From a virus, in IMG/VR virus record IMGVR_UViG_3300017963_000288, positions 1-63,067 of that record: 63,067 nucleotides of DNA, one strand, 5' to 3'. Shown piece by piece: positions 7,362 through 52,564 of this stretch. The position numbers and the translations under genes are program-made. Each line of letters starts with the position of its first letter. The stretch's first letter is position 1. A model generated the notes under the pieces. It had not been told where the DNA came from, made no database searches, and saw nothing but the letters and a program-made list of their open reading frames with translations.

Positions 7362-8261
7362 CTACTCATCATCCTCGAAACTGACGATCCTGCCGGGGCC
7401 ATCGGCCAAAAGCGTGTGCAATTGCTTGACGGCACCGTCCAGCGTTTCTTTGACCGAATCCCTGACGCCTCGGTTCGTTCGCAGGTCGTCCAGACTCTTG
7501 CCGTCCAGGGCCGAACGGATCGTATTGACGACGCTACCGAGGTCCTTGTCGTCCAGAATGTCGCGCTTATCAAATAAGGCTAACCACTCAAGGACTTTCC
7601 GCAATGTTCCCGGTTGCAGCGTTTGTCGGTGTCCGTTATCTTTCACGCCAAGAGCGTGCGCCAATTTCTCCGCGAGTCCGGCGATCCCTTCGCGAAGTGC
7701 AATCTTCGCCTCGTCGGCAAGGGCCGTCAACTCGACCTGTACTCTGTCGCGCTCTTTGGCGTAGAGGTATTCGCCGATCTGTGATGCGCCAGGCGTGGCC
7801 CATTGCGTGACTCGTTTCTCCACCCAGAACGCCCGCCGCAAGGCGCTCACGCTCGGGTAATCCGCCTCGTTGAACTGGTTCGCGAGTGCCGCCCTCGCAA
7901 TTTCCTTCTGGGCGGGATACACAACGAGAAACGCCTCGACGGCCTCTTGGTATTTTTCCTCATCCACCAATACGCGGTCGTATGCCTGTTCGAGCAAACT
8001 GATCGGAATCAAGTGCCGCCCCGTCTTGAATGGCCCATGCAATTCAAGGTCGCGCAGATATGAGCGACATGCGGAGGCGATCTTGCAGATGTACTTGTAC
8101 TCGGGCGACTCGACGATACGCTTGTTCAACCCGAGTTGCGACTTGTCCGCAGAAGTCTCGATTTCTGCCATGTCGCCGCGTCGATGGATTCCCGGCCGAT
8201 GGAAAACGACCTCCAGAATCACGGTGCCTTGTTCGAGTGCGTTGACTGTTGCGCTAGTCAT
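7362..8261 (-). CDS. unrecognised 299-residue protein with acidic C-terminal tail
   Basis: 299 residues, mainly helical. The N-terminal 35 residues form beta strands (TVILEVVFHRPGIHRRG); residues 40-220 are helical with heptad-like spacing. It lies between DUF1257 and the AAA+ ATPase, a position held in related phage loci by helical partner proteins of the ATPase (from memory, not checked). The last residues GRIVSFEDDE match the acidic tail found on three other proteins in this window. AAGGAG seven bases before the ATG gives the start. Confidence 0.7.
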   Translation of the reverse strand: MTSATVNALEQGTVILEVVFHRPGIHRRGDMAEIETSADKSQLGLNKRIVESPEYKYICKIASACRSYLRDLELHGPFKTGRHLIPISLLEQAYDRVLVDEEKYQEAVEAFLVVYPAQKEIARAALANQFNEADYPSVSALRRAFWVEKRVTQWATPGASQIGEYLYAKERDRVQVELTALADEAKIALREGIAGLAEKLAHALGVKDNGHRQTLQPGTLRKVLEWLALFDKRDILDDKDLGSVVNTIRSALDGKSLDDLRTNRGVRDSVKETLDGAVKQLHTLLADGPGRIVSFEDDE

Positions 8262-8314
8262 GATCTAACTCCTTGCAATTGGAAATGTGACGGATTCTCA
8301 GTCGATCCGCTCTA

Positions 8315-8340
8315 GGTAGCCGTGCTCACCCACGGCTACC
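8315..8340 (-). other. stable hairpin in the spacer after the AAA+ gene
   Basis: Perfect 10-bp stem (ggtagccgtg / cacggctacc) with a 6-base loop, 17 bases after the stop of the ATPase gene on the minus strand. No T-run follows, so it is more likely an RNA-processing or 3'-end protection hairpin than a full terminator. Confidence 0.6.
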
Positions 8341-8356
8341 CTGGCCGGATCGGCAA

Positions 8357-9895
8357 TCACTCCGGATCGGCAACGCGACGCCCTCGCCCCCGTTTCGGTT
8401 TCTCGTAGACGCCGGGTTTGCTTGCCGATAGGTATTTGCCAGCCGCTTCTTCACGCAGAGCGTTTATGGCTGTCGCCTCAATACGCCCCTGTGGAATCAC
8501 AAGCGGCGCGACCTCATCTAACGGCTTGTCGAACCGCCACGCCTTATCCACGCACCGCTGAATATTCCGCCCGACCCAACCATCGTCCATGCCATTCCTG
8601 ACGGTCCCTTTGACATCCTCGTATTTCTTGAGCCAGACGTCCCATATTGCGGATCGCTCTTTTGCGTCCGGCAGATCGAAAAAGAATGTGTCGGTGAACC
8701 GTGAACGCAACGCCGTATCCAGTCCACGGATACTGTTGCTCGTTGCGATCCATAGAGCGTTATCACTCCCAACGGCACTCACCACTTTCAACGCCGTGCG
8801 AAGATACCCGCCAGACCGTCCGACCAACTCGTGTTTCATCGCACCCATGTTGATCCGTATGACGAGCCGCCCGAACTCTGCGCCGACAGCTTTCGCAAAC
8901 GCCGACTTCCCACTCCCGGCGACGCCCAACAACATCAGACCATAAACGCCGTGGTCCTCCATGTAAGTTAGTGTCTCACCGAGTTGTTCGGCGTTGACTC
9001 CGCTTGTGTCACCCGTGTGACCAAGACCGGACTTTTCGATTTCATCCAACCACACAACAACCTCTGGTGGCTTGCGTCCGGTCATCAGTTGTCTTGCGTA
9101 CTCCTTTACGCTGTCGAGGCCACCCAGACTCTCGAACGTCTCGCCACCACGATAGACGGACAAGCCGCGAGTCTGTTCGATCAACGCCGTTTTCGTTTGC
9201 CACAAGTGAGCGATGTCAATGCCGTCCTTGCGGAGTGCCATCGCCGTGGCCTGTTCGGCCGAAAACGCCGGGAGCCCTCGAACCGCCTCAACGCTACGCA
9301 ACAGCGTATCCCTATCCATGATCGTGCGTTTAGACGTCCCCGTGCCCTTGCATTTTTCGCACTCCAGCCCCAGCGCAAGGCCAGTCCCGCCACACCCTCC
9401 ACACAGACTCGCGGACTGATCGAGTTTTGCGACGATTTCCGTCAGGTGTTCTGTGTCTGGTAACGGCTCGTCGAGAACAACGATGTCGTCCTTGAGCAGC
9501 GCAGGCAGATCAATCGTAGATTGAACGATGATAAGCATCCGGCGATCCAATTTCAGTTGATCGCGCAGATTCCAGACGGCCTGTTGTACGTGTGGGTTCC
9601 GCTCGAAAAACTCGCACCCGTTCAACATACATGCGATTCCACGCTCCGGCAATTCTCGCGAGCACCACATCAGAAATTCCACCGGCTCGGTGCAATCGTG
9701 CAAATCATCCGTGATGATTTCCTCGCCGCCCTCGTTGACGCCCACGACGCCGCGTACACAATCCCACATGACGATGGGGCCATTCTTCAATCCCTTCGCC
9801 AATTGTATCACGCATGCGCCGGGGTCCGGCGTTGTGATGGCGACAATTGGAACGGCCGCTTGGCGAGCAAGACTCAACTCTTTGACGAAATTCAT
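8357..9895 (-). CDS. Ycf46-like AAA+ ATPase with permuted Walker motifs
   Basis: 512 residues. Residues 1-155 match the degenerate N-terminal domain of Ycf46-like proteins (a VMWD strand near 44; FFERNPHVQQAVWNLRD near 96; a closing EPLP near 144). A DnaJ-like zinc knuckle (CGGCGGTG at 165, CEKCKGTG at 179) links it to the ATPase domain. That domain starts at GGLDSVKEY (258). Walker B (VVVWLDEIEKS, 279-289) comes BEFORE Walker A (GVAGSGKS, 324-331); sensor 1 (ATSN, 384-387) and the Arg finger region (RSRF, 397-400) follow in normal order. No hhhhDE occurs between Walker A and sensor 1. This is a natural circular permutation of strand 3 and its helix. AAGGAAG precedes the start. Likely a remodelling ATPase working with the DUF1257 and DUF2997 proteins. 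Confidence 0.9.
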   Translation of the reverse strand: MNFVKELSLARQAAVPIVAITTPDPGACVIQLAKGLKNGPIVMWDCVRGVVGVNEGGEEIITDDLHDCTEPVEFLMWCSRELPERGIACMLNGCEFFERNPHVQQAVWNLRDQLKLDRRMLIIVQSTIDLPALLKDDIVVLDEPLPDTEHLTEIVAKLDQSASLCGGCGGTGLALGLECEKCKGTGTSKRTIMDRDTLLRSVEAVRGLPAFSAEQATAMALRKDGIDIAHLWQTKTALIEQTRGLSVYRGGETFESLGGLDSVKEYARQLMTGRKPPEVVVWLDEIEKSGLGHTGDTSGVNAEQLGETLTYMEDHGVYGLMLLGVAGSGKSAFAKAVGAEFGRLVIRINMGAMKHELVGRSGGYLRTALKVVSAVGSDNALWIATSNSIRGLDTALRSRFTDTFFFDLPDAKERSAIWDVWLKKYEDVKGTVRNGMDDGWVGRNIQRCVDKAWRFDKPLDEVAPLVIPQGRIEATAINALREEAAGKYLSASKPGVYEKPKRGRGRRVADPE

Positions 9896-9940
9896 TTCTC
9901 ATCTTCCTTTCGTATCTCGGTTAGGTTGGTTGGGGTTGCG

Positions 9941-10189: not shown

Positions 10190-10208
10190 GATTGACTCCC
10201 CTCTGCGT

Positions 10209-10550: not shown

Positions 10551-10568
10551 AGCAGACTCCCTTCTTGT

Positions 10569-18133: not shown

Positions 18134-18333
18134 AGTATCGCTTTCAACAGGGCGTGGCGTTGAAAGTCATCGACAGACACCCCAAAAACCCGCGTCCAGT
18201 TTACACCGGACGCGGGCGGCTTTTCTACCCAACCCCGAGTCAACAACAACTGCACAAGTTGTTTGGGCTCCTTGGGTTTAGGTAACGTCGGCCCACTATG
18301 GACCGGCGAGATAATCGGCGGCAAGGAACTCAA
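18130..18333 (-). CDS. hypothetical small protein
   Basis: 67 residues, proline-rich first third, then a compact part GVNWTRVFGVSVDDFQRHALL. Overlaps the ParB-fold gene by 38 bases and the zinc-ribbon gene by 4. Not recognised. Confidence 0.55.
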   Translation of the reverse strand: MSSLPPIISPVHSGPTLPKPKEPKQLVQLLLTRGWVEKPPASGVNWTRVFGVSVDDFQRHALLKAIL

Positions 18334-18997
18334 CGCATCGCCCCTGGCTTATTTCGGGGCCATCGTCCGCATGCCGCTGCTTCATTCGCTGCAACGCTTG
18401 GTCGAAAATCTCCCGCTGTTCTTTGGTGACGCTAATTGGTCGCCCCATGGTGGGCCGCTCTGAATCGTCCGAGATTGGCCCCTGGACGCCCTGGCTGACC
18501 ATGGGGATGGATTGTCCTATTCGAGGTCTTGCTGCCGTTAGCGTGGACGAGGCGGGCTCTGACGGCAATTCTGGGGGGATTAGGTCGGCAATCAGTCCAT
18601 CTAATTGCCCATCGGTCCATCCAAGTCCAGACAACGACACGCCTTCGCTCTGGAGCCGGTCGAGGATGTCGGACAATTCCGGCATATTCCAGGACGCTAG
18701 TTCTGCCGTTCGATTCAATGTCACAGCTAGAGCATCGGCCTCTATTTCGCTCACTTCCAAGAATACGACGCGGCAGAACGGCCATTTTAGCTCACGCATG
18801 GCCGCGTAGCGACCACAGCCATGAATGATCGTCTTATCGGCTTTGCGTACGAGGATCGGCTCTGGTTGGCCGAACGTCCGCAGGCTCTCTTTGATCGCGG
18901 CGATATTTTCTGCCGAGTGCTTGCGCGGGTTCTGCTCGGGCAGCGACAATTCGCGCAGGGCCACTTGCTCGATCTTTAGGTTCTGACCGCGAGCCAT
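18296..18997 (-). CDS. ParB-like N-terminal domain protein
   Basis: 233 residues. N-terminal ParB core: LREL..PEQNPRKHS, then IKESLRTFGQPEPILVR, then the phosphate-binding motif IHGCGRYAAM (G-x-x-R-x-x-A), then a helix LNRTAELASWNMPELSDIL. This is the classic ParB/RepB/Spo0J order without the centre-binding HTH, as in phage proteins often found with methyltransferases. The start ATG lies one base after the stop of the DUF1353 gene; GAAGGGAT precedes it. Confidence 0.85.
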   Translation of the reverse strand: MARGQNLKIEQVALRELSLPEQNPRKHSAENIAAIKESLRTFGQPEPILVRKADKTIIHGCGRYAAMRELKWPFCRVVFLEVSEIEADALAVTLNRTAELASWNMPELSDILDRLQSEGVSLSGLGWTDGQLDGLIADLIPPELPSEPASSTLTAARPRIGQSIPMVSQGVQGPISDDSERPTMGRPISVTKEQREIFDQALQRMKQRHADDGPEISQGRCVEFLAADYLAGP

Positions 18998-23918: not shown

Positions 23919-25786
23919 CTCTGCGACAATATCAGCGCGACGCAATGATGGCGGTCATTGCAGACATTCAGTCAAAGGAACGTACACTTGTCTCCATGCC
24001 AACCGGCGTAGGCAAGACGGTGTTGGGTGCGGCACTTGCCGACTGGTGGGGCGAGAACGCCCATCGTTTCGGCATGTCGGCTCGCGTCCTTTGGTTGGCA
24101 CACAGGGACGAGCTGGTCTGGCAAGCGGCGAGAGCGCTTGAACTCGCGACCGGCGAGGAAGTTGCGGTGGAGAAATCCGATTCGCGAGCGAGAGCGACAG
24201 CGGCAATGTTCGACCGGCGCATCGTGGTTGGGAGCGTCCAGACATTGTTTCAAGAGGACCGTCGTGATAGCTTTGGACACGACGAGTTCGGCCTGATTGT
24301 AGCGGACGAGGCTCATCACTACGTTGCTCCCGCTTTTCGCGACGTAATTGACTATTTTCACGCAGCCAAGACGGTTGGATTGACGGCGACAACGGATCGA
24401 CACGACCAGATTAGTCTGGGTCAGTTGTTCGAGGGATGCGCGTACCACTATGACGTGATGCAGGCAATCGAGGACGGCTGGCTCTGCCGATTGCGCCAGG
24501 AGTACGTTGAGGTGGAGGGCCTTGATTGGTCTTCGGCCCGCAAGAGCAGCACGGGCGACTTGTCGGCAACGGACATAGACCGGATCATAAACGAAGAAAC
24601 GGTGCTCCACAAGATCGTGGTGCCTTGCGTTCGCTTGGCTGGTGATCGTCCGACTCTCGTCTTTACCCCGAGCGTCGCGACCGCGAAGGCGATAGCCGCG
24701 ATCATCCCACGCTACACAAAGGCGGGAGCGGCTGCGATCTGCGGGGACACCCCGGAGGATGAACGCCGCCGATTGGTCGATCAATACAAAGAGGGGCATT
24801 TCCAGTTTCTTGTCAACTGTATGGTCTTGACCGAGGGGTTCGATGCCCCAGCGACGGCCTGTATCGTGATGGCAAGGCCAACGAACTCTCGGACGCTCTA
24901 TGCACAGGCAATCGGCCGAGGTTTGCGCGGTGGGCACCGCTGCCCGATTCCTGGCAAGAAGGATTGTCTGATAGTCGATCTTGTCGGAGCATCGCTCAAG
25001 CACCAACTCTGCACGTCCTCTGACATACTGACGGGCAACTTTCACGAGGTCGTGCAAGAGGCCGCAAGGGGCATGCTCCGCGAGCCGCGCGAAGATGACG
25101 AGGAATCCCCTGATGTTGTCAATGCGGTCTTGGCAGCGATTGCCAACGAGGAACAGCTACGCCGGGAGCGACGCAAGAAACTGATTGCAGAGGCGAAACT
25201 CAAGCGGACAGCAGTAGACCCGTTCGGCGTCCTCGCGATGCCGGAAGTCGATCTGCCGGAGCCGGGTTTCTGGGGCGATGAATTTGTAACAGAGAAGGCA
25301 AAGGCCACGCTCGAACAAGCAGGAGTGAATACCAAGGGATTGACGCGGCTTGAGGGTGAGCGATTGGTTCGGGAGTTACGAAGGCGGGCCGAGTGTGGTA
25401 TATGCACATTCAAACAGGCGAGGCACTTGCGAGCGTGGGGTTTCGATCCGTCTATGAGTTTGATTCAAGCGAACGTGATTATCAGTAAACAATTTGCTCG
25501 GCGGAGTCGAGCGTACATTCAACCGGAGGACGCAAAGCGAAAGCACTACGCGAAGAAGCGGGGGCAAATGGTCACATACGAGGAATTGGCTTGGACGCCT
25601 ATGTGGTCGCTTGGCGAGGGCATCGAGTGTGTCGTCTGTCGCGATGGGGGCGAGCCGGTCAATCACAGAACAACCAAGCGAACGCATTTCAAGCATGGGC
25701 GAGTGGATGGAAACCTCGTCACGCTAGTAGACGACCGTGGATGGACGATCCAAACAACGGTAGATAAAGTGGACAGACTAAAATGA
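23915..25786 (+). CDS. SF2 DEAH-box helicase
   Basis: 623 residues. Q-motif-like RQYQRDAM at 4-11, Walker A PTGVGKT (29-35), DEAH at 130-133, motif III TATT (157-160), and C-terminal helicase motifs around RPTLVFTPS, LTEGFDAPA and QAIGRGLR. After residue 450 an unusual C-terminal extension carries CGICTFKQARHL and a basic end. It resembles RAD25/UvsW-type translocases used by phages in replication and recombination. Coupled (ATGA) to the zinc-finger gene before it and the WGR gene after it. Confidence 0.93.
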   Translation: MTLRQYQRDAMMAVIADIQSKERTLVSMPTGVGKTVLGAALADWWGENAHRFGMSARVLWLAHRDELVWQAARALELATGEEVAVEKSDSRARATAAMFDRRIVVGSVQTLFQEDRRDSFGHDEFGLIVADEAHHYVAPAFRDVIDYFHAAKTVGLTATTDRHDQISLGQLFEGCAYHYDVMQAIEDGWLCRLRQEYVEVEGLDWSSARKSSTGDLSATDIDRIINEETVLHKIVVPCVRLAGDRPTLVFTPSVATAKAIAAIIPRYTKAGAAAICGDTPEDERRRLVDQYKEGHFQFLVNCMVLTEGFDAPATACIVMARPTNSRTLYAQAIGRGLRGGHRCPIPGKKDCLIVDLVGASLKHQLCTSSDILTGNFHEVVQEAARGMLREPREDDEESPDVVNAVLAAIANEEQLRRERRKKLIAEAKLKRTAVDPFGVLAMPEVDLPEPGFWGDEFVTEKAKATLEQAGVNTKGLTRLEGERLVRELRRRAECGICTFKQARHLRAWGFDPSMSLIQANVIISKQFARRSRAYIQPEDAKRKHYAKKRGQMVTYEELAWTPMWSLGEGIECVVCRDGGEPVNHRTTKRTHFKHGRVDGNLVTLVDDRGWTIQTTVDKVDRLK

Positions 25787-26193
25787 GCGCAACAACACAT
25801 ATGCGAAGACGGTTTGAGTTTGTCGGCAACGGCAGCAGCAAGTTTTGGCAGGTTGAGGTTGTCGATCAAACACCGGGCGATTGTCGCCTCGTGATTGGGT
25901 GGGGGCGAATCGGCGCTCGTGGACAGGAGAAGGTATTTGCCTTCCGTTCGCACCGTCAGGCCACATCGGAAGCGGAACGTCGCATTATTGGAAAGCTGCG
26001 GAAGGGCTACCAAGAGGTAACGTCTGGTCGGACGTTTTCGAGCGGCGAACGCACTCGCCATCCTCAGATGGAACAAACAGTAGGTGCGGCAATTAAGCTG
26101 CCAGAAACGACAAGAGCGAAAGTCGCACGCCGGGAGCAAGGCCGCAAACCTACAACCGTCGTGCGTCAAATTGTTTTTGACGAGGATGAGTAA
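25783..26193 (+). CDS. WGR-domain protein with acidic C-terminal tail
   Basis: 136 residues. Residues 8-85 are a WGR domain: FEFVGNGSSKFWQVEVVD, then LVIGWGRIGARGQ and the closing FRSHRQATSEAERRI helix. In PARPs and related bacterial proteins this fold binds DNA ends or ribonucleic acid. A flexible 50-residue stretch follows, ending VRQIVFDEDE, the tail shared with three other proteins here. Coupled by ATGA to the helicase, so they likely act together on DNA. Confidence 0.88.
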   Translation: MSATTHMRRRFEFVGNGSSKFWQVEVVDQTPGDCRLVIGWGRIGARGQEKVFAFRSHRQATSEAERRIIGKLRKGYQEVTSGRTFSSGERTRHPQMEQTVGAAIKLPETTRAKVARREQGRKPTTVVRQIVFDEDE

Positions 26194-26216: not shown

Positions 26217-26366
26217 ATGCGAATAAAAATACGTTTGATATTCGCATGGTACGATCTGTGGGTTGGCGTGTTCATCGACACTCGGAAGCGGCGATTGTAC
26301 GTGTTTCCGCTGCCGTGTTTTGGGCTGGTGATTTCGTTAGCCACTAAAGCGGCAAAGGAGGAGTGA
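26217..26366 (+). CDS. 49-residue phage protein (FAWYDLWVG family)
   Basis: 49 residues: MRIKIRLIFAWYDLWVGVFI, then D-T-R-K-R-R-L-Y-V-F-P-L-P and a hydrophobic strand. The order FAWYD-x-WVG, D-x2-x-R-x-LY, P-x-P is a widespread small phage protein that I recognise by pattern; its role is unknown. GGGGGAGTG precedes the ATG. The last codons K-A-A-K-E-E-stop are the coupling cassette that starts the next gene. Confidence 0.8.
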   Translation: MRIKIRLIFAWYDLWVGVFIDTRKRRLYVFPLPCFGLVISLATKAAKEE

Positions 26367-26668
26367 TGACGCTAGTTGAGCAGTTGCGGTGGGCATCTAT
26401 TGGTGAGTATGCCATGCCCACGCGAGCGACTTGCAGCAAAGCCGCTGATGCCATTGAGCGGTTGGAAGCCGAGAACGCGAAACTGCGGGAAACCGTGCAA
26501 TTCATTTGCCAACAACTCCAGATGCACTCACCCAAAATGGACGGGTCGCATAGCTGGCGATGGCGAGGTGGATGGCCGATGTCGGCGGTGCGTGCCGCTA
26601 CGGCGAATGAGGCGATAGTGAGGGCCATGTACTTAGTACGTGAAGCCGAACAGGCAAAGGAGGAGTGA
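26366..26668 (+). CDS. hypothetical coiled-coil protein
   Basis: 100 residues. DAIERLEAENAKLRETVQF is a short coiled coil; the remainder is unrecognised. The start lies inside the TGATG of the previous gene with GGAGGAG upstream. It ends AEQAKEE, the coupling cassette. Confidence 0.65.
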   Translation: MTLVEQLRWASIGEYAMPTRATCSKAADAIERLEAENAKLRETVQFICQQLQMHSPKMDGSHSWRWRGGWPMSAVRAATANEAIVRAMYLVREAEQAKEE

Positions 26669-27051: not shown

Positions 27052-27053
27052 TG
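27027..27053 (+). promoter_or_regulatory. repeated translational coupling cassette (one of four)
   Basis: The segment gccgaacaggcaaaggagga followed by gtgatg encodes A-E-Q-A-K-E-E-stop for one gene, supplies a near-perfect ribosome site (AAAGGAGG) and gives the overlapping TGATG for the next. The other copies are at about 26345-26368 (shorter: gcggcaaaggaggagtgatg), 26646-26670 and 27311-27338 (last one ends gagtgag, with no coupled gene). Confidence 0.85.
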
Positions 27054-29239: not shown

Positions 29240-29755
29240 ATGGCGATATTACGAGGCGATGGGGAATTGACTCCCGACGAATTTCTGGCGATACAGATTC
29301 TCGGCAGGGAGTCATACAAACACCGCAGTCGCGTGACACCTGGACGAGCGAAACCAATAGACATCCTTTTGCGAATTCAGGGCACACTGACTGTCGGTGA
29401 GCCGGGGGTAACGCACAGCAAAAAGTCGCCAAATGCAGTTAGGGTACTTGCGTACCTACTCGAAACGCTCTCGCCCGATGCAGCGGATGCAATCAACAAT
29501 GCTATCCTCGACTTGCCCGCTGCGGAAGACAGTGACACCCTACCGACCGACATCACCGAGGGGTATGTGGCGAGAGCAAAAACATTGATTTCACGGATCA
29601 CACCAACGACGACCGGCCACCGCAACGGCGCGACGAGCGGCAACTTCAATATCGGCCTCGTCGACCAGGACGCCCTCGAACAATCCGTCAGCGTGGCCGT
29701 CAGAGAATCGACACGGACGATCCGCTTTGACGAAGACGAACAAGTCACGGAGTAA
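29240..29755 (+). CDS. unrecognised protein with acidic C-terminal tail
   Basis: 171 residues, not recognised. The first 70 include GRAKPIDILLRIQGTLTVGE, a strand-rich part; residues 75-130 are helical; the last 25 are flexible and end TRTIRFDEDE plus four more residues, a variant of the tail on three other proteins in this window. Its place between RecT and RusA makes a DNA-binding accessory (single-strand binding type) the leading guess. GGAAGGG before the ATG. Confidence 0.65.
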   Translation: MAILRGDGELTPDEFLAIQILGRESYKHRSRVTPGRAKPIDILLRIQGTLTVGEPGVTHSKKSPNAVRVLAYLLETLSPDAADAINNAILDLPAAEDSDTLPTDITEGYVARAKTLISRITPTTTGHRNGATSGNFNIGLVDQDALEQSVSVAVRESTRTIRFDEDEQVTE

Positions 29756-39477: not shown

Positions 39478-40676
39478 CTGCGCGAACGGCCAGTATCCTG
39501 AAAGACAACCTGGACCTACTGATGATTTCACAGGGCGAACGTGCGTGGCCACTTGGTTGTGTTGATATAGTCAATTACGCTCGCTGCCTCGGATGGAACG
39601 CACTCGCCGTAAGGATTGAAACTGCGGCGAGCCTATGGCTCCTACAAATATCACCGCCTCGGATAATCGGCTTGAGTCTCGACACGTCGCAAGCGGGCGC
39701 TGCGGAGGATATCGTCAGGGAGATTCGCCAATTATGGCCCGGCGCAAAACTTGTTTTCGGTGGTCGCCACATTCAACGAGAAACGCTGGACGAGCCGCTG
39801 ATGCAACTGGCCGACCATCTCGTCGTCGGCGCTGGTGAATATCCGATCCTCGACCTTTTGATGGGTGAATCCGACGAACGGTGCTTGTATGGCAAACCAT
39901 TCGAGATGGCAGATTACGCGACCTTACCCATGCCGTCTGAAAGACAACATAAAGACGCCTTGGGTGGAACGGCACATGTCATGTTCAGCCGAGGATGTCC
40001 CTTTCGCTGTTTCTTCTGTGAAGATAGTCGCCATTCTGTCGTGCGTAAACACCCATCTGTTGCCGTTGACTACATCCGCCAAGTTGTCGGGTGGTCAAAA
40101 TCACGAAGGGTATTCGTTTATGATGACGTACTCACAGCCGACAAGCCATGGCTTCATTCGTTCGCGGATCGAATGTCTACGTTTTCGGATGGTATTGAAC
40201 TTGAAGTATTCGCGCACGCGGCCACACTAACCGAGGAAAAACTTTCCTGGTTGCGGCAGGCTGGCGTAGTGCGGGTGAATGTCGGCGCGGAGTCCGGCGA
40301 CGATCATGTGTTGGCGACGAACCGCAAAGGCGTTACTGTAGCCAAATTGCGAGAAATCCACAGGCTGTTTAGTGGTGGCGGATCACCACAACTGCATTGC
40401 ACATGGTTGCTTGGGTTAGCTGGAGACACGAGGGATAGCATGCGGGCAACAATTTCGTTGGCGAATGAAATTGGGACAGACGATAATCCATGGTTCGGGT
40501 TTGCTGTTCCATACCCCGGCACGGAGTTTTATCGCAGCGCCGCTGATTATGGTATGATCCGCACAGATGTTCCTTATCACCGCTGGACGAACGAGGAGCC
40601 GGTGTTTATTCCGCACGGACTCGTGGAGCGCGACTTGCGAGAAGCGATGTCACTCGCTAGGTCATCTGTATTCTAA
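39474..40676 (+). CDS. radical SAM enzyme with B12-binding-like N-terminus
   Basis: 400 residues. N-terminal 1-140 is a Rossmann-like part in the place of a cobalamin domain but lacks the D-x-H-x-x-G ligand. The cluster motif is C175-x3-C179-x2-C182 (SRGCPFRCFFCED), then YDDVLTADKPW, GAESG and PYPGTEFY. Family members install methyl groups at unreactive carbons, oxidise sugars, or thiomethylate. Starts ATGA in the previous gene. The inert carbon chemistry in a phage glycan island is unusual. Confidence 0.9.
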   Translation: MTARTASILKDNLDLLMISQGERAWPLGCVDIVNYARCLGWNALAVRIETAASLWLLQISPPRIIGLSLDTSQAGAAEDIVREIRQLWPGAKLVFGGRHIQRETLDEPLMQLADHLVVGAGEYPILDLLMGESDERCLYGKPFEMADYATLPMPSERQHKDALGGTAHVMFSRGCPFRCFFCEDSRHSVVRKHPSVAVDYIRQVVGWSKSRRVFVYDDVLTADKPWLHSFADRMSTFSDGIELEVFAHAATLTEEKLSWLRQAGVVRVNVGAESGDDHVLATNRKGVTVAKLREIHRLFSGGGSPQLHCTWLLGLAGDTRDSMRATISLANEIGTDDNPWFGFAVPYPGTEFYRSAADYGMIRTDVPYHRWTNEEPVFIPHGLVERDLREAMSLARSSVF

Positions 40677-40690
40677 ACAGGGATGGCAAT

Positions 40691-41566
40691 ATGCCATACA
40701 ACGAAGACCCCAAGTGGCAGAGAGTTACACACAGTTATCCTTGTCCTATCTGTAAGAAGCCCGACTGGTGTTGCGTGCGTGGCGATGGCAAAGCTGCCTA
40801 TTGCATGCGGGTAGAGAGCGGACAACCTGTAACGACTGGTGGTTGGGTACACGATCTCACCACACCACTGGCGGCGTCGGATCGACCACCGCCACAACCA
40901 AAAAAAGAGCGGCTGCCAGACCGGGAACTAAACAAACGATTCGCACCATTAGCTCACAATCTCCACCGCCACAACACGAAAGCCGTCGAGCGATTGGCGG
41001 ATCAATTGGGGGTTGCGCGCTGGGCATTGGATGTTATCGGAGTTGGCTATGGAAATGTGGGCGGTTGGTGTTGGACGTTCCCAGAGCGCAATCACCATGG
41101 TCAAGTTATCGGGATCAATCGGCGGTTTCCCAATGGGAAAAAGTTTGCCGTCAAACATTCCGGGCGAGGACTGACGTACTGTGATGATTGGCAAAGTTAT
41201 GCCGGGCCGATCTTCGTCGTAGAGGGCGGGACGGATGTTGCGGCGTGTCTAACATTAGGACTATGCACAATCGGGCGACTGTCTTGTTCTGGTGGGATAA
41301 AATATCTCACACCGATGCTATCACCAATGCGGGATCGACGCATACTCATTATGGGTGAACGCGACGCCAAAGCGGACGGCAGGTGGCCCGGCAAACAAGG
41401 AGCAAAATCAATATGGGCGTCACTGCGTAAGTCACTTCGTCGCCACATAGAATGGCACTTGCCACCGGACAACGCAAAAGATATGAGGGATTGGTTGAAC
41501 TCGCAGAAACTCGATGTTAATGATCGCGACGCCTGTTTCGCTATCGGCAGACAGTTGTTTAGATAA
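40691..41566 (+). CDS. Toprim/primase-like protein
   Basis: 291 residues. Zinc site C18-x2-C21 with C27/28 and C38; Toprim fold from about residue 170 with E178 in VVEGGTDVAACL and an acidic ILIMGERDAK (219-227). It has the size of a helicase-free primase or a regulatory primase-like protein. Its place inside the glycan operon, away from the replication genes, is odd, though it may be made early by the same promoter. Confidence 0.8.
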   Translation: MPYNEDPKWQRVTHSYPCPICKKPDWCCVRGDGKAAYCMRVESGQPVTTGGWVHDLTTPLAASDRPPPQPKKERLPDRELNKRFAPLAHNLHRHNTKAVERLADQLGVARWALDVIGVGYGNVGGWCWTFPERNHHGQVIGINRRFPNGKKFAVKHSGRGLTYCDDWQSYAGPIFVVEGGTDVAACLTLGLCTIGRLSCSGGIKYLTPMLSPMRDRRILIMGERDAKADGRWPGKQGAKSIWASLRKSLRRHIEWHLPPDNAKDMRDWLNSQKLDVNDRDACFAIGRQLFR

Positions 41567-43663: not shown

Positions 43664-44446
43664 ATGACGATCAGTGGAACAAAAGAGTGGAGCGTCAAGA
43701 GTGTCAATTGTCATAACGGATGTAAGTACAAGTGTCGTTATTGCTACGCCCGTGCCGAAGCAATGCGATACAAGCGGATCACCAATCCGGACGAGTGGGG
43801 CAACGAGTATTGTTCGCTCCGCAGTCGTGATGTGCGACGGAGGCACCACAATTACGGGGGCACGGTCATGTTTCCAACCACGCATGACATCTGGCCGGAA
43901 ATCATAGAACCATGCCTTACGGTTATTGGCAATCTGCTCGACGCCGGTAATATGGTTTTGGTTGTTTCTAAGCCCAACCGGCAATGCGTCGAGGCTATGT
44001 GCCAGGAGTTCGACAGTTACCATAACAGTATCCTTTTTCGCTTCACAATTGGAGCGACAGACAATGACCTGTTGCGTTATTGGGAACCTAACGCTCCGAA
44101 CTTCGACGAGCGGCTTGATTGCTTGAAGTACGCGGCCTCGCTGGATTACAGGACGAGCGTGAGTGCCGAGCCGCTTCTTGATGTCGAGAATGTCGCGGCA
44201 TTGTGGGATGCGGTAGCTCCGTTCGCAACCGATTCTATCTGGATCGGCAAGATGAATCGCGTCAGGCAAAGGGTTTTGCCGGGCACGTCCGAGGAAGCGA
44301 TTGAAGCAATCGAGCGGGGGCAGACGGACGAGGCGGTGCAAGCGGTCTACGAGCAGTTTCGCGATCACCCGCTTGCAAGATGGAAGGAGAGCTACAAGGC
44401 GGTCCTTGGGCTTACGTTAGCAATCAAACCGGGGGAGGATAAATAA
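43664..44446 (+). CDS. radical SAM enzyme (spore-photolyase-like group)
   Basis: 260 residues. C20-x3-C24-x2-C27 (GCKYKCRYCYAR), then an SPL-like GNLLDAGNMVLVVSKPNR and the paired IGAT strand. The last 55 residues (from GTSEEAIEA) are repeated in the chimeric gene at 44996-45205. Substrate unknown; it may act on a sugar, a nucleotide or DNA. Confidence 0.85.
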   Translation: MTISGTKEWSVKSVNCHNGCKYKCRYCYARAEAMRYKRITNPDEWGNEYCSLRSRDVRRRHHNYGGTVMFPTTHDIWPEIIEPCLTVIGNLLDAGNMVLVVSKPNRQCVEAMCQEFDSYHNSILFRFTIGATDNDLLRYWEPNAPNFDERLDCLKYAASLDYRTSVSAEPLLDVENVAALWDAVAPFATDSIWIGKMNRVRQRVLPGTSEEAIEAIERGQTDEAVQAVYEQFRDHPLARWKESYKAVLGLTLAIKPGEDK

Positions 44447-44732: not shown

Positions 44733-45023
44733 ATGGTACCGTGTTCGTTCCCAGAATCAAACGGCGTGCTCGACCCACCGGAGGGCGTGACGCTTGATGA
44801 TTGCGGCGTTCTGTCTGTGTGCTTTACGCATTTCGACGATGAGAAGCGAACGCCTGTAACCATCGCGTGCTGGAAGCTGACGGCTGGTGAGCTGGAAACC
44901 TTGAAGAAGACCGGCCGAATCTGGGTGGGCGGTCGCGGTCACACAATGCAGCCGCTTTTCCTTACTGCGGACAATCCCTTTCAGGAGGACGGACAATGCC
45001 AGCAACCCACAGCATCTTCTTGA
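44733..45023 (+). CDS. hypothetical small protein
   Basis: 96 residues, beta-rich; not recognised. GAGG eight bases before the ATG. Present only once: it has no partner in the second duplicated unit. Overlaps the chimeric gene start by 28 bases. Confidence 0.6.
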   Translation: MVPCSFPESNGVLDPPEGVTLDDCGVLSVCFTHFDDEKRTPVTIACWKLTAGELETLKKTGRIWVGGRGHTMQPLFLTADNPFQEDGQCQQPTASS

Positions 45024-45205
45024 TCGGTTGCGTGAACGGAGGCACGTCCGAAGAAGCTATCGTGGCGATTGAACGAGTGCAGACGGATGAAGTGGTTCAT
45101 CGAGTCTACTCGCAATTCCGTGACCAACCGCTGGTACGATGGAAAGATAGTTACAAACAAGTATTGGGGATACAATTGGCTACACAACCTGGGGGGGATC
45201 AGTAA
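44996..45205 (+). pseudogene. chimeric gene: sulfotransferase start joined to radical SAM end
   Basis: 69 residues. Residues 1-18 (MPATHSIFLIGCVNGGTS) match the start of the sulfotransferase at 45485 (MPQQPSIFLMGCVNGGTS). Residues 19-69 match the last 51 of the radical SAM protein (EEAIVAIERVQTDEVVHRVY against EEAIEAIERGQTDEAVQAVY). The junction falls at GGCACGTCC, a string shared by both parents. The frame is open and has AGGAGG upstream, so it may still be translated, but it cannot do either parent's job. Confidence 0.85.
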
Positions 45206-45484: not shown

Positions 45485-46153
45485 ATGCCACAACAACCGA
45501 GTATTTTTCTTATGGGTTGCGTGAATGGAGGCACGTCAATCATCGCCAAACTATATCAGACTCTCGGTTGGCACTACAACGAGAGTCACGAACACCACCG
45601 CAAGTTCATGGAAGTCGAGGCGGCGAATATCGCTACTGTTCGTCTTCGTAACGAAATGGACGGGTTGCCACGACGCCCCCCATCTCCAGCGGCGGCGATC
45701 AAACTCTTTGCCGAGTGGTTCGCATCTACAAACCACCCGACCATCTGCAAGGATCATCGTTTTTCGTTTTGTATGGATCGACTCTCGCGAAGCATCCTAG
45801 ACACCGAACCGAACGCAGCGCTCGTGTGGCTAAAAAAGGACATTACTAGTATTGCGGCGTCGATCCGTCGTCGACGAGGTGATAAGGGCTGGTGGTGGAA
45901 CCGCAGCCCAGAAAAATGGATCGCGGCGGCGGCGGAACAATATCAGCTATGGCCCGGCCAGAAATGGGTTGTGCAATACGAGAGCGTGCGTTCAACCATC
46001 GGGAAACAACCAAGGGATTTTCTACTAGAACTAGGGATTGAACTCTGGGTTGATCCCACACTACAATGCGTCCTTGACGCACAATCGCTATTCGACGTAA
46101 CTCGTGGCAAAAAAGGCAACCCACATCAGGGAAAAGACGGATGGCAGTATTGA
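45485..46153 (+). CDS. sulfotransferase-family protein, third copy
   Basis: 222 residues. N-terminal loop MGCVNGGTS (10-18) replaces the usual 5'-phosphosulfate site, and KDITSIAASI replaces the Arg of the 3' site by Lys. DHRFSF and an LW-rich end follow. This is the parent whose start was copied into the chimera. Either a divergent sulfotransferase or a kinase-like P-loop relative. GGAGGG before the ATG. Confidence 0.7.
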   Translation: MPQQPSIFLMGCVNGGTSIIAKLYQTLGWHYNESHEHHRKFMEVEAANIATVRLRNEMDGLPRRPPSPAAAIKLFAEWFASTNHPTICKDHRFSFCMDRLSRSILDTEPNAALVWLKKDITSIAASIRRRRGDKGWWWNRSPEKWIAAAAEQYQLWPGQKWVVQYESVRSTIGKQPRDFLLELGIELWVDPTLQCVLDAQSLFDVTRGKKGNPHQGKDGWQY

Positions 46154-46833: not shown

Positions 46834-46852
46834 CCCATTGGAGGAAATTGGC

Positions 46853-47134: not shown

Positions 47135-48008
47135 CCCGAACGGACATTCACGATATGATTTTTCCTCGCTGATTGATGGTATCCCTATTGATCGGGGTAA
47201 AGTGGCCGTCCAACCGGACGTGTATTTCTGTTCGCACCCAACATTGCTCAAGCATTATGGGCAAGTGCCAAAGGGATGCAAGATCGTCGCATGGAAAGAG
47301 ACGCTGCGGATATTGGACGATAAAGTATTGGCGGAGCGTGCCGACCTGATTGTTGGTTACGTCTGGCAACCGAAGGATTGGACTTTCCGCAACGTCAGAG
47401 TATCACCAAACCATCTATCTGAAGTCCAGCACAAGTATCTTCAAGTTCCGTGGCTTTGCCACGACCGCGTGCTTGACACGATCCACAAGGCCAAACTGAC
47501 GCCCGCATATCTCGACGATGACCTGGAGCCAATACGGGCGAAATGGGGATCAACAGAAAAGAAACGCAAGGTTGGGTTCATCGGCCAGTTGATCCCCCAT
47601 CGCAGCCGAGTTATGGCGAAGGTAGAGGCGGCTTTCGGTTGTGAAATCAAACAATGGGCCGGGGGTCATCATCCGTCCCTGCCGCCCGGTCAATATCTCC
47701 GCTGGCTGACCGAGTGTGACTTGAATCTCAACCTAGAGGGTGACACGTGGGGCTGCTCCCGATTGTCTGAATGTGCCATGATGGGGGCGGCGTTCGTTCA
47801 GTGCCGCCCAGAACGCCTCGCCTACGCCCCACCAATCTCGTCCGAGAATGCCATCCTCTGCCGTGATTGGACGGAAAGGGATATAATACTCGCCGGGATC
47901 GAACGTGCGTCAGACGTTGCGGAGGGGGCGACCAGAGCATATCTGGAGGGTTGGTCGCTCCGTGGACAGATTCTCCAGGTTTTCCACCGTTTAGGGGGGG
48001 GCGTATAA
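47013..48008 (+). CDS. glycosyltransferase, GT-B type
   Basis: 331 residues. Weakly related to the N-terminal half of the 680-residue protein at 32340: VGFIGQLIPHRSRV and YLRWLTECDLNLNLEG pair with FIGYDDYNRR and YLRWLAGCKAAVDM. Late RLSECAMMGAAFVQCRP is the donor-site region. AAAGGG before the ATG at 47013. Confidence 0.78.
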   Translation: MKLAINLKIFRGGYPRQRKTRRLVYLAAIAKRMGHDVRIHSPNGHSRYDFSSLIDGIPIDRGKVAVQPDVYFCSHPTLLKHYGQVPKGCKIVAWKETLRILDDKVLAERADLIVGYVWQPKDWTFRNVRVSPNHLSEVQHKYLQVPWLCHDRVLDTIHKAKLTPAYLDDDLEPIRAKWGSTEKKRKVGFIGQLIPHRSRVMAKVEAAFGCEIKQWAGGHHPSLPPGQYLRWLTECDLNLNLEGDTWGCSRLSECAMMGAAFVQCRPERLAYAPPISSENAILCRDWTERDIILAGIERASDVAEGATRAYLEGWSLRGQILQVFHRLGGGV

Positions 48009-49012
48009 TGCCGGTTATTCGCGTCGTTTTCGACGTACCGAAGTGGACTTGGCACCACCGAGCGATGGACCTCGCCACCTTCGCGCCCCCAGAGTACACG
48101 GTCCATACGCACAAGGAATCAACGTTCTTGAATCACTTGAAGGACCCGGGTTTCGTATCTGGTGTCGATGCTGTGTTTTTCATGGGTTGGGCCAGTTGTC
48201 CGATCCAACGCATCAGAAAAGCGGGCTGCAAGCGGCTCGTATCTTTAGTGACTTCGGCCGGACCCGCTTACCGCGCCGTGAACGATGGAGATTGGAACAC
48301 CTGGATCGTCACGGGCAGTCGCAATTACGCAAACGCCCACACAAAACTCCCACGATACGATGCTATAATTGTCGTCAATCGCTTCCTTGCCGATGCCTGC
48401 CGAAATCACACAACGCGACCAATTTATTTGATCCCAAGTGGCGTGAATACTGATGCGTATTCGCCATCGCCAAGCGGTCGCGAACAGCACAATGGCTTTC
48501 GCGTCGGCTGGTGCGCCAACATCAACGGCACACACACCGTCAAAGGATACAAGGAAATACTCGAACCACTAATTGCGGAAACGCCGGAATGGAAGTGGTG
48601 CGTCAATACGCGGAACCATCGTCGCGCATGGACGCGAGAACAAATGGTAGACTGGTATCGCACATTGGACGCCTTTGTGTGTACGTCGATTTGTGAAGGG
48701 ACGCCCTCGCCGGTTTTTGAAGCTGCATCCTGTGGTGTGCCGATAGTCTCAACAGACGTTGGGTGCGTGAGGGATTGGCAATTGCCCCATGACCTACACT
48801 TGATTGCGCCCGCCTATCAGAACGCAAAACAAGCGGGCGTCTCCCGCGAACACCTACGAGCGTCCCTGTCCGCCATTGCAAACATGCCACCCGCCGAGCG
48901 AACGCTGTTGGGATTCGAGTTGCGTTCGAGCGTCTGTAAACTGTTTGACTACCGCGTTATATCCCCGCGCACAATGGAGGCGTTATGTCAGACAAACGGA
49001 AGCGAGCGTTGA
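48008..49012 (+). CDS. GT4-like glycosyltransferase, tandem copy 1 of 3
   Basis: 334 residues. Donor motif CEGTPSPVFEAASCGVPIV (E-x7-E), preceded by VGWCANINGTHTVKGYKEIL and KWCVNTRNHRRAW. Starts in TAATG. The three tandem enzymes share WYR-x-x-D-x-F, EG-x-P, EAA-x-CG and STD-[VI]-G. Confidence 0.88.
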   Translation: MPVIRVVFDVPKWTWHHRAMDLATFAPPEYTVHTHKESTFLNHLKDPGFVSGVDAVFFMGWASCPIQRIRKAGCKRLVSLVTSAGPAYRAVNDGDWNTWIVTGSRNYANAHTKLPRYDAIIVVNRFLADACRNHTTRPIYLIPSGVNTDAYSPSPSGREQHNGFRVGWCANINGTHTVKGYKEILEPLIAETPEWKWCVNTRNHRRAWTREQMVDWYRTLDAFVCTSICEGTPSPVFEAASCGVPIVSTDVGCVRDWQLPHDLHLIAPAYQNAKQAGVSREHLRASLSAIANMPPAERTLLGFELRSSVCKLFDYRVISPRTMEALCQTNGSER

Positions 49013-49995
49013 TCCTGTATGATGTTCCCGGTTGGGCACAGCATCGTTTCGCGTGTGGTATTCGCTCACATGCGCCGGACTGGTGCGAAGTTGACGTCGG
49101 CATCGCTGGTGAATATCTCAACGGTGGCATCGACGCGGACCGTATCGCACAATATGACGGTGTCCTTGCTCCATTATTCGCAATGTATCGGCGTTCGGGA
49201 GTGCGGCGACTCGTCGGTTTGTTAGCCAGCCACGCGTTGATGTTCTCGCGATATGACAAAGACGATTGGCGAACACTCGGCGTCACAAAGGACCGCCATC
49301 GCCGGCACGCCGCGAATGTACTACAAAACGTCGACGGGGCAATCGCCAGAAATCGCGAGTTGCGATTCTCATTGTCGGAATATCACGACCATATCGTAAC
49401 GATCCCTGTCGGTGTTGACCTTTCGGTTTTCAATAACACCGGCCGTCATTATAGCAAATCGGGGGAGCCTTTGCGTATTGGGTGGTGCGGTAATAAGGCA
49501 TGCAAGTTAGATCGAAACTTCAAGGGGTACGAGCGAATCCTCCAGCCGCTAATGCGCAGGACGGGAGGGCGTTACGAATGGCATGTGAACACCAACTCCC
49601 ATAAAGAGGCGATCCCACCAGAGGGAATGGCGAAATGGTATCGGGCGTGTGATGTGTTCATCACGACGGCATCGGCAGAGGGGACGCCAAACCCGGCCTA
49701 CGAGGCGGCCGCTTGTGGCTGTTGCGTTATCTCAACGGACGTCGGTGGCATTACAGACTGGGTTGCCATGCGATCACTCGCACAGATCGTCCCGACGTAC
49801 CGAAATAAAGAGGAAGCGGCCGTTACGATCCGTGCGTTTGAACAATTACTGCATGGCTTTGACAAGAAGCGTGAACTTGTCGAACAAGCGGGGGGTATAC
49901 TTGCTCATGATGTTGGTCGGCGATATTCTTATCGCGTTCTCGCCCCCGGTATACTCCAGTTTGTCACACTGCACGAAGGCAAGCAGCGACCGTGA
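48985..49995 (+). CDS. GT4-like glycosyltransferase, tandem copy 2 of 3
   Basis: 336 residues. WCGNKACKLDRNFKGYERIL, WHVNTNSHKEAIPPEGMAKW, then AEGTPNPAYEAAACGC. GGAGG directly before GCGTT and the ATG. N-terminus VPGWAQHRFACGIRSHAPDW matches copy 3, so copies 2 and 3 are the closer pair. Confidence 0.88.
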   Translation: MSDKRKRALILYDVPGWAQHRFACGIRSHAPDWCEVDVGIAGEYLNGGIDADRIAQYDGVLAPLFAMYRRSGVRRLVGLLASHALMFSRYDKDDWRTLGVTKDRHRRHAANVLQNVDGAIARNRELRFSLSEYHDHIVTIPVGVDLSVFNNTGRHYSKSGEPLRIGWCGNKACKLDRNFKGYERILQPLMRRTGGRYEWHVNTNSHKEAIPPEGMAKWYRACDVFITTASAEGTPNPAYEAAACGCCVISTDVGGITDWVAMRSLAQIVPTYRNKEEAAVTIRAFEQLLHGFDKKRELVEQAGGILAHDVGRRYSYRVLAPGILQFVTLHEGKQRP

Positions 49996-51011
49996 AAGTC
50001 CTGTTGATTTACGACCTCGACGGATGGGCTTTCCACCATATCGCATGTGGGCTACAAAGCTATGCGCCGGATTGGGTTGACGTTACCATCGCGTCGCACG
50101 AAGAATACTATGCCGACATCAGGGAACACAAACCGCGGGTGACAGCCTACGACGCTATACTTGCGATTTCACTCTGTACGGCACGCCCACGACTCCCTAA
50201 ACCGATCTGGATTGGGTTCGCCTGCCATTGCGGATTCAGTTATGACACGGAAACGCTCTACGATTTCCGGACCCTTGGCGTCAATCCTCGTCGATGCCGC
50301 AAAGCGGCATGGGCTTATGTGACGAATGAAGTGGACTGGATTTTCGCATGCAATTCACAAGTCGCAAACGCCTTTCGTGCATATGCTCCGCAGCGGGTAT
50401 CACTCCTGCCGCAGGGCATAGACACTGATTTGTTTACGCCCCGCCGCTGGCGCGAGCCTAAAACGGTACTTACAGCCGGGTGGTGTGGACAACCGGCACC
50501 GTGCAAGGGTCGCTCTCAAGTTTTGCGACCCCTGATAACCGCCCTCGGCCCCTCGTGGCGATGGCGGATCAATTCGAGAACGCATGGCACGGCTCTTAGT
50601 CCAGCGGAAATGGTAAAATGGTATCGCAATCTGGACTTGTTCGTCTGTACTAGCACGAGTGAAGGTGGCCCACTAACTCCGTTCGAGGCTGCGTCGTGTG
50701 GCGTCCCGGTCTTGTCAACGGACATCGGTAGCGTTCGTGATTGGAATCTCATCCACGATGTCGGCCTCATTCTGCCGGAATACAAGAACCACCGTGACGC
50801 AAAACGTGTCGTCACACTGGCGGTCGGCATCATGAACCATTGGCGACCAACCAGAGAATTATCTGAAACATTCCGGACGGACATCGTAGAATCGCGGTCA
50901 TGGAAAACCTTAGCTGCGCGATGGTTCGACGAAATAAAGAACGTCGTGGAACGTAAGCCGACGCTTCCTTGTGGGTTTGCCAAGGAATTGCGACGATTGA
51001 AAGTCAAATAA
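49992..51011 (+). CDS. GT4-like glycosyltransferase, tandem copy 3 of 3
   Basis: 339 residues from a GTG start (GTGA overlap). WCGQPAPCKGRSQVLRPL, EMVKWYRNLDLFV, SEGGPLTPFEAASCGVPVL. The start LIYDLDGWAFHHIACGLQSY aligns with copy 2. Confidence 0.88.
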   Translation: MKVLLIYDLDGWAFHHIACGLQSYAPDWVDVTIASHEEYYADIREHKPRVTAYDAILAISLCTARPRLPKPIWIGFACHCGFSYDTETLYDFRTLGVNPRRCRKAAWAYVTNEVDWIFACNSQVANAFRAYAPQRVSLLPQGIDTDLFTPRRWREPKTVLTAGWCGQPAPCKGRSQVLRPLITALGPSWRWRINSRTHGTALSPAEMVKWYRNLDLFVCTSTSEGGPLTPFEAASCGVPVLSTDIGSVRDWNLIHDVGLILPEYKNHRDAKRVVTLAVGIMNHWRPTRELSETFRTDIVESRSWKTLAARWFDEIKNVVERKPTLPCGFAKELRRLKVK

Positions 51012-51050
51012 ATAGCAACTGCGGTAAATGTCTTCACGAAAGGGTTGATG

Positions 51051-52019
51051 ATGAATCTTTTGGTGCTTTTCCCGCGTCAATTATGGACGCGAAAGCAGAG
51101 TCCAGTTCGCCGCCATGCGATTCTCGCTCTACAAAGGCACGACGATACAACCGTCAAGATCAGTGGGCAGGGGTGGCCCGACTGGCGGCATGACATCGAC
51201 GGGGGCTCGGTTGCGATGATCGAGCAACTGATGCCGGATGCCGATGCTGTTTTCTGGTACAAGCCGCTCGGGACCAGAGGAATCCCACCGCTGGATGATT
51301 CGCGAGCCGTAAGGGATCGGTGGTTGACGGTGGAATCCTTCAACGAGTGCTGGTGGCCGGACAATCGGGCAGAGCGTGAAGCGACGGAAGCGGGCACGTC
51401 GCTGGTGATCTGCCACCACGCAAACGACAAGCCGCAGTTTCGGACCTTACCGACGGTTCACATTCCGCATTGCGCCGAAAAGTCGATCTTCGCCAGGGCC
51501 GCGAAGCCTTGGAAGAAACGCGACATTGACGTTCTGCTTTGCGGAGTTCAGAGCCCAAGCATCTACCCACTTCGGGCTCGATGGTTGGAATTGTACCGCG
51601 CAAACAAACTGCCGGGACACGCAGTCCATTATGAGCGGCCGCCATACCGCGCGAAAGACCTCAATAAGTGCGACGAGTTGGTAGCCGAATACGCAACCAT
51701 GCTCGGCCGATCTAAGATTATCCTCGGTTGCACGTCGCGCTACAAATATCCGCTTGCGAGGTTTCCAGAAGCAGCGATGGCGGGTGCCGTCCATGTCAGC
51801 GATACGCCGGAGCAGGCCCCGGTTGGATACGATAAGATGATCTGCCCGGTCGATCCAGCCATGCCGGAAGCGATGCTCATCGAGACGGTGGTCGCGGCCC
51901 TGGATCAAGCCGCCTCGATGCAACCACAAGAGGTCGCAATGGAGTTGTTTACGCAGGAATGTTACGCGAGCCGTTTCCTCGGAGCAATAGATCGGTCACT
52001 CGCACAAGGGCCGCGATGA
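51051..52019 (+). CDS. glycosyltransferase-like protein
   Basis: 322 residues. The C-terminal third has the conserved GT-B pattern FPEAAMAGAVHVSDTPEQAPVG preceded by a strand LLCGVQSPSIYPLR. Likely the last glycosyltransferase of the island. AAAGGG lies six bases before the ATG at 51051. Confidence 0.75.
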   Translation: MNLLVLFPRQLWTRKQSPVRRHAILALQRHDDTTVKISGQGWPDWRHDIDGGSVAMIEQLMPDADAVFWYKPLGTRGIPPLDDSRAVRDRWLTVESFNECWWPDNRAEREATEAGTSLVICHHANDKPQFRTLPTVHIPHCAEKSIFARAAKPWKKRDIDVLLCGVQSPSIYPLRARWLELYRANKLPGHAVHYERPPYRAKDLNKCDELVAEYATMLGRSKIILGCTSRYKYPLARFPEAAMAGAVHVSDTPEQAPVGYDKMICPVDPAMPEAMLIETVVAALDQAASMQPQEVAMELFTQECYASRFLGAIDRSLAQGPR

Positions 52020-52564
52020 TGGTTACAAGACGCTCTGGCAGGACTGGCGAGATCGCTATTGACGGGCTCGCTGTTGCGCCCATTCACTCATGGCAGATCA
52101 AGCACGATGTCCCGACATTCGACGCGCACGCCCAAGAGAATTGGTCAACATTCTCATTCCAAAGAGGCCGCACGACTATTACCTGCGAGTTTCTTGTGCC
52201 AACTGCCGTCCTGAGTCAGTTCTGTGATGTCTGCGCACCGGGTGTTGTGGTTGACGTGCGATTGTATTGCTCAGACCAGAGTGACTACCATGGGGCATAT
52301 CGGGTCACAGATATTGAGGTTGAGGTTCAGGAACCGCCAGCACATCAGCGCGTGATATTGACTCTCGGTGAATCGCCGTCGATGACTTTGCCGCTCGGTA
52401 CGCCACTTGAGAGTTCCATTGTTTCCGTGCCGTCGAACGTCGCTTCTGTGTTACATGACGCTCTTTCCTCGGCGATGGCATCACAGCCACAACCGAAACC
52501 GAAACCGAAACCGAAACCGAAACCGAAGTTCACTCGGCAGATTGTGTTTGACGATGATGAGTAA
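52016..52564 (+). CDS. beta-rich phage protein with PK linker and acidic tail
   Basis: 182 residues. Residues 1-135 form a beta-rich domain (EIAIDGLAVAPIHSWQI and later FLVPTAVLSQF) like phage structural or adaptor modules. Residues 155-175 are a rigid repeat QPQPKPKPKPKPKPKF coded by ccgaaa units, leading to TRQIVFDDDE, the shared tail. The ATG lies in ATGATG over the stop of the previous gene. It is the last gene of the rightward run. Confidence 0.7.
   Translation: MMVTRRSGRTGEIAIDGLAVAPIHSWQIKHDVPTFDAHAQENWSTFSFQRGRTTITCEFLVPTAVLSQFCDVCAPGVVVDVRLYCSDQSDYHGAYRVTDIEVEVQEPPAHQRVILTLGESPSMTLPLGTPLESSIVSVPSNVASVLHDALSSAMASQPQPKPKPKPKPKPKFTRQIVFDDDE

Follow-up and report, generated by a model that had tools for sequence, protein, structure and literature searches.

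A C-terminal tail shared by unrelated phage proteins as a probable docking motif for an AAA+ ATPase module

The viral DNA analyzed here (IMG/VR record IMGVR_UViG_3300017963_000288, positions 1 to 63,067; 63,067 nucleotides, hereafter the window) encodes four non-homologous proteins that end in the same acidic peptide, R-x-[IV]-x-F-[DE]n. A comparison with about 80 other phages revealed that this tail marks the proteins of an AAA+ ATPase module together with DNA-binding helper proteins. The tail is probably a conserved docking motif that brings client proteins to the module at one common site.

The shared tail and its carriers

A preliminary description of the window, made from the sequence alone, had drawn attention to an acidic C-terminal tail on four unrelated proteins, and all four ends were found in the sequence as described. 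They are ...GPGRIVSFEDDE in the protein P0004 (299 amino acids), ...VVRQIVFDEDE in a WGR-domain protein, ...STRTIRFDEDEQVTE in the product of the gene starting at position 29,240 (the 29240 protein) and ...PKPKFTRQIVFDDDE in the product of the gene starting at 52,016 (the 52016 protein). The strand of the first gene was corrected to minus. The location of the tails behind flexible linkers agreed with the predicted disorder of these segments. The pattern R.[IV].F[DE]3 occurred within the last 14 residues of the products of 4 of the 88 window genes, while shuffling gave a mean of 0.001 and amino acid composition an expectation of 0.0004. The preliminary description had allowed for a pattern common by chance, but the tail stands far above it (4 seen versus about 0.001 expected). 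A six-frame scan of the window for [IVLM]xF[DE]2-4 returned six matches, four of which were exactly these protein ends. The codons and the flanking DNA were dissimilar among the four carrier genes, so the likeness lies in the peptide and not in a copied DNA segment.

P0004 is the most widespread carrier. Its homologues were found in 78 of 84 loci, and practically all of them retain the tail; for example, a homologue that is 32% identical (L016) ends in ARVISFDEEE. When 43 DUF3150-like homologues, which are 16–53% identical to P0004 of the window, were aligned, the tail residue R291 was the sole invariant column. The predicted local distance difference test (pLDDT) score was below 50 for the tail and about 94 for the preceding body; an invariant arginine in a low-pLDDT segment behind a well-folded body is the signature of a linear motif. 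The tail is under selection at the protein level. The P0004 sequence gave no match in Pfam, including DUF3150, or in PHROG. Foldseek analysis against viral models (BFVD) gave a top match annotated as DUF3150 (E-value of 3e-14, template modelling score of 0.77 over 300 columns), and the structural model indicates that P0004 has the DUF3150 fold. Neither a sequence-profile relative nor a significant fold match was found for it in the PDB.

The WGR domain of the second carrier passes the curated Pfam cut-off (60.8 bits versus 22). Tailed WGR proteins were present in two other phages with the module, namely L080 (identified by Pfam) and L077 (by motif only). A WGR search across 50 module phages gave a single match above the threshold, which shows that WGR is a rare client. 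Two homologues of the 29240 protein were found (G011 and G012, 36–37% identity), both tailed, with the ends TRLITFDDDEKKATA in G011 and TRAIMLSEE in the other. The one homologue found for the 52016 protein (L012, in G001) is 33% identical and ends in TRQIVFDDEE; its contig is colinear with the window's right third. The end of the 52016 gene, where the tail is encoded, is overlapped in antisense by a small cysteine-rich open reading frame (ORF; 52530-52778, minus strand), and the overlap is kept in G001. Since this antisense ORF is itself conserved, conservation of the 52016 tail does not count as independent evidence. The 52016 protein has no detectable homology to the PKPK-linker protein of G011, and a common family of the two is not claimed. 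The preliminary description had considered that homologues might have lost the tails, but those of the genes at 29240-29755 and 52016-52564 keep them, as do practically all of those of the gene at 7362-8261.

In order to find relatives, the tail with its stop codon was written as a degenerate DNA pattern and scanned over 2.9 million viral contigs. There were nine matches, two of them at the ends of long ORFs, and both of these ORFs encode homologues of window carriers. Further P0004 homologues and 80 loci with a neighboring ATPase gene were obtained through profile searches. Scans of the viral contigs for close relatives using P0004, P0002, P0001 or RecT alone found nothing; the family became accessible through the DNA pattern of the tail and a profile of the ATPase. 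Among 2324 other genes of the loci, a set that leaves out the ATPase and DUF3150-like genes, a very strict form of the tail was seen 10 times versus 0.05–0.3 expected. A narrow DNA pattern of the tail gave 29 matches in 54 module phages and 5 with a reversed control.

The preliminary description had supposed a DNA-end binder (WGR) and a partner of an ATPase module among the carriers, and the carriers do include types that bind DNA ends or other nucleic acids (WGR and SWIM proteins) and a protein of the ATPase module. SWIM proteins were detected by the motif C.C..[WYF]...C.H, and all nine of those in viral loci end in the tail or in a short R-x-[IL]-R variant; three further SWIM-type proteins with such ends were found in contigs of bacterial metagenome-assembled genomes (MAGs). 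Taken overall, the SWIM-type ends follow R-x-[IVFL], with or without the hydrophobic residue at +4. These carriers contain the CxCxnCxH cysteine/histidine pattern, with Pfam SWIM scores below the threshold (E-values of 0.02–0.08). A YqaJ recombinase carries the tail in L084, and the phage L085 has at least eight matches to the tail pattern, arranged in two clusters. The isolated phage Tunturi_3 has gp96 (DRKFHLEGEEF) and gp131 (VRKIRLDNE). In other common gene families, tails were found in none or at most one of the members.

The four-gene module and co-variation of the tails

The gene of P0004 belongs to a group of four core genes encoding the ATPase, the DUF3150-like protein, a DUF1257-like protein and a DUF2997 protein. 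HMM (hidden Markov model) searches found all four together in 76 of 82 loci, and most exceptions were short or truncated loci. In the locus L125 (9005-12040), the four genes lie in one frame and are separated by stops and short gaps alone. The DUF2997 protein of the window scored 59 bits against a Pfam cut-off of 24.1. The DUF1257 assignment of the window protein is by HMM clustering only: it gave no match to Pfam DUF1257, and a relative reached 15.4 bits versus a cut-off of 22.2. Across the DUF1257 and DUF2997 proteins, 1 of about 139 members has a tail.

The model of the ATPase homologue from L125 had a Foldseek match to the tandem AAA protein Cdc48/p97 (E-value of 4.5e-9). The AAA residues G324, G327, K330, E285 and N387 are invariant in 80 sequences; the canonical order of the Walker motifs is not kept in them, as Walker B (residues 284–288) precedes Walker A (residues 324–331). 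This order suggests that the AAA domain of the ATPase is internally permuted. In the minus-strand gene of the window, Walker B (VVWLDEIEK, 9032-9058) is followed by Walker A (GVAGSGKS, 8903-8926) and then by sensor 1. The ATPase has a weaker version of the tail, beyond what the preliminary description could see: an arginine near the C-terminal end, behind a variable linker, has a conservation of 0.99 in 80 homologues, and R-x-hydrophobic-x-hydrophobic was seen at 44 ATPase ends versus 3.1 expected. Only 12 loci with this ATPase were found in bacterial or MAG assemblies, and the PADLOC tool gave weak partial matches to the ATPase and nothing more.

The tails of the ATPase and of the DUF3150-like protein, which are not homologous, match each other within genomes. 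Their similarity was 4.99 within a genome versus 1.50 after shuffling (p < 2e-4). The co-variation persisted in 21 loci in which all ATPases are less than 45% identical (5.10 versus 0.74) and in shuffles within bins of guanine-cytosine (GC) content, while a control using far-linker segments gave no signal. Relatedness and base composition are thereby reduced as causes, as far as this thinning and the GC-matched shuffles can show. The simplest cause of the matching tails is a single partner that reads both and drifts along with them.

Features of the window

Table 1. Coordinates of the tail carriers, tails and module genes in the window.
Feature	Position	Strand	Basis
P0004, predicted DUF3150-fold protein; main and universal carrier of the tail, AAA+ ATPase partner	7362..8261	-	Homologues, Foldseek
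Tail of P0004, RIVSFEDDE (residues 291-299)	7365..7391	-	R291 invariant; pLDDT <50
AAA+ ATPase P0010, of the tandem p97/Cdc48 type; Walker A follows Walker B	8357..9895	-	Pfam AAA 1.3e-10
Degenerate tail of the ATPase, RRVADPE	8360..8380	-	R506 conserved 0.99 in 80 homologues
DUF1257/Ycf35-like core protein, tail-less, receptor candidate	6899..7297	-	Clustering and HMM; homologue of G007 40274-40726
DUF2997 core protein, tail-less, receptor candidate	6470..6655	-	Pfam DUF2997 4.2e-16
WGR-domain protein, tail carrier	25783..26193	+	Pfam WGR, E 1.4e-16
Tail of the WGR protein, RQIVFDEDE	26164..26190	+	Sequence
Function-unassigned tail carrier between RecT and RusA genes	29240..29755	+	Neighbours by Pfam; tailed homologues in G011, G012
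Tail of the 29240 protein, RTIRFDEDE then QVTE	29714..29740	+	Sequence
PKPK-linker tail carrier at the junction of glycan cassette and virion genes	52016..52564	+	Homologue in G001
Tail of the 52016 protein, RQIVFDDDE	52535..52561	+	Overlaps antisense ORF 52530-52778

Several other features of the window were noted. Three consecutive small genes on the plus strand (26366-26668, 26668-27051 and 27051-27338) encode dissimilar proteins with the common end AEQAKEE, so that the genome has a second shared peptide at C-terminal ends. A region of about 22 kb (30160-52019, plus strand) contains genes oriented in one direction and resembling those of glycosyltransferases, sulfotransferases, methyltransferases and radical-SAM proteins, with tandem duplicated glycosyltransferase genes at 48008-51011. 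In a small gene of this region (44996-45205, plus strand), the first part of the sulfotransferase-like gene 45485-46153 is fused to the last part of the gene 43664-44446, which suggests recent recombination; the first part of this chimera corresponds to an intact gene in the relative G001 (255-926). Three ParB-like genes are located at 2549-3178 (minus strand, judged by eye only), 18296-18997 (minus strand) and 22370-23341 (plus strand).

Proposed role of the tail and alternative explanations

These characteristics allow us to propose that the tail is a C-terminal short linear motif, R-x-[I/V/F]-x-[F/L]-[D/E]n, which would dock its carriers on one common site. This site would be located in a phage-encoded AAA+ machine made of the tandem p97-like ATPase, the DUF3150-fold protein, the DUF1257/Ycf35-like protein and the DUF2997 protein. 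The ATPase and the DUF3150-like protein carry the tail themselves, and phage-specific clients (WGR, SWIM zinc-finger, YqaJ recombinase and small proteins) would plug in via the same tail, which would give the phage a means of attaching nucleic-acid-binding proteins and other effectors to the machine. It is very likely that the tailed proteins bind a common partner, and the balance leans towards a receptor within the module. The DUF1257 and DUF2997 proteins are tail-less yet constantly present and are therefore, together with a site formed with the assembled ring, the best receptor candidates. Since the clients are often of nucleic-acid-binding types, phage DNA or nucleoprotein may be the target of the machine; a role in remodeling them is suggested here only tentatively.

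Several observations weigh against this proposal. Some family members have divergent tails, such as TRLYGDD in L097. The residues at positions -5 to -1 before the arginine also co-vary weakly, and shared drift may give part of the co-variation signal. The preliminary description had envisaged one hub protein that binds the tail; the co-variation within genomes favors a common partner, but no receptor or hub protein was identified in the four-component model, in which docking was not seen. This model was an AlphaFold prediction of the L125 chain P0004-ATPase-DUF1257-DUF2997 with three stops read through; its parts folded, no docking occurred and both tails were unstructured, with a thin alignment of 41 rows, few of them for the ATPase. 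In addition, no biochemical function of any core member was found in the literature searched.

Alternatively, the AAA+ ATPase itself could recognize the tail as a tag, in the manner of a degron or an unfoldase signal, and thread or remodel any protein that bears it. The ATPase accompanies the tails in practically all loci, its fold resembles the tandem unfoldases p97/Cdc48 and the C-terminal ends of the carriers are predicted to be unstructured. However, the ATPase bears its own weaker tail, which is odd for a substrate mark, the most universal carrier is the obligate partner of the ATPase kept in 78 of 84 loci, and a dedicated protease was not recognized in the module. This explanation was thus considered unlikely. 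An even less probable one is a virion-packaging or assembly tag that loads proteins into the particle or brings them to the assembly site. Although the 52016 protein adjoins the virion block and a carrier of 149 amino acids in G028 adjoins a 2077-aa protein, most carriers are encoded in early or replication-type regions, adjacent to RecT, RusA, helicase or ATPase module genes.

The preliminary description had compared the tail with the C-terminal tail of the bacterial single-stranded DNA-binding protein (SSB) and proposed a hub tail that recruits DNA-repair enzymes. The SSB tip is a short acidic C-terminal docking peptide with hydrophobic residues on a disordered linker (for example PMC7145534). 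The phage tail is also acidic, aromatic-containing and C-terminal, is placed behind flexible linkers and is found on some DNA-related carriers. However, the likeness is functional only. The SSB tip has one carrier and many receptors, with the acidic residues first and Pro-Phe last, while the phage tail has many carriers and begins with an invariant arginine followed by hydrophobic residues and then acidic residues, so that it ends in D/E. No OB fold was found by Pfam among the window carriers, no carrier was recognized as an OB-fold SSB, and G051 encodes a protein with the new tail beside a canonical SSB (end DDDMDVPF). The SSB-like explanation was therefore considered highly improbable. The remaining explanation, namely that the tails have no common partner and arose by chance, from a copied DNA segment or as a by-product of overlapping genes, could draw on the conserved antisense ORF at the 52016 tail but is already refuted for the tail set as a whole, as about 80 phages retain the tail in diverged homologues, a copied element is ruled out by the differing codons and flanks, and chance is ruled out by the shuffle and composition expectations both in the window (about 0.001) and in the loci of other phages.

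The principle of a docking peptide is familiar. In the case of clamp-binding motifs and encapsulin cargo-loading peptides, unrelated clients share one motif for one hub; the phage motif differs from these, and neither a sliding clamp nor an encapsulin shell was recognized as a hub in a search that was not exhaustive. The docking motif RVxF of the eukaryotic protein phosphatase PP1 has the form [RK]-x-[VI]-x-F with nearby acidic residues. As a peptide, the phage tail is strikingly similar to it, but this is an analogy only, since no PP1-type phosphatase is linked to the tail (none was searched for). The DUF2997 and Ycf35 (DUF1257) genes are adjacent in the Synechocystis cluster duf2997-ycf35-fed7 (PMC4284462); the cyanobacterial pair stands beside a ferredoxin gene, while the phage pair is accompanied by the permuted AAA+ ATPase, the DUF3150-fold protein and the tails. 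MoxR-vWA chaperone pairs of jumbo phages also combine an AAA+ protein with a dedicated partner and were proposed to act in virion assembly (PMC7824862). The module described here has an AAA+ protein of another family, a vWA domain was not recognized in it, and no shared tail is described for the MoxR-vWA pairs. A search of the literature on DUF1257, DUF2997, DUF3150, phage Ycf46 and permuted AAA proteins, which covered few subscription papers, found no description of the module or the motif, and the motif, the module and its clients are without a described counterpart in the literature searched.

It seems reasonably likely that tailed phages possess an AAA+ machine that shares with its interchangeable clients a C-terminal linear code, which drifts between phages but is matched within each of them and serves as a private recruitment language. 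The wiring of numerous proteins to a single hub by shared linear motifs is characteristic of eukaryotic cells and has seldom been seen in phages. One conserved arginine and ten residues provide a handle on a widespread four-gene module and predict which phage proteins cooperate. Tunturi_3 and its host Tunturiibacter psychrotolerans X5P2, both isolated, offer a phage-host pair in which this is testable. If the proposal is true, new effector domains (WGR, SWIM, recombinases) would be swapped into the machine by the addition of a ten-residue tail.

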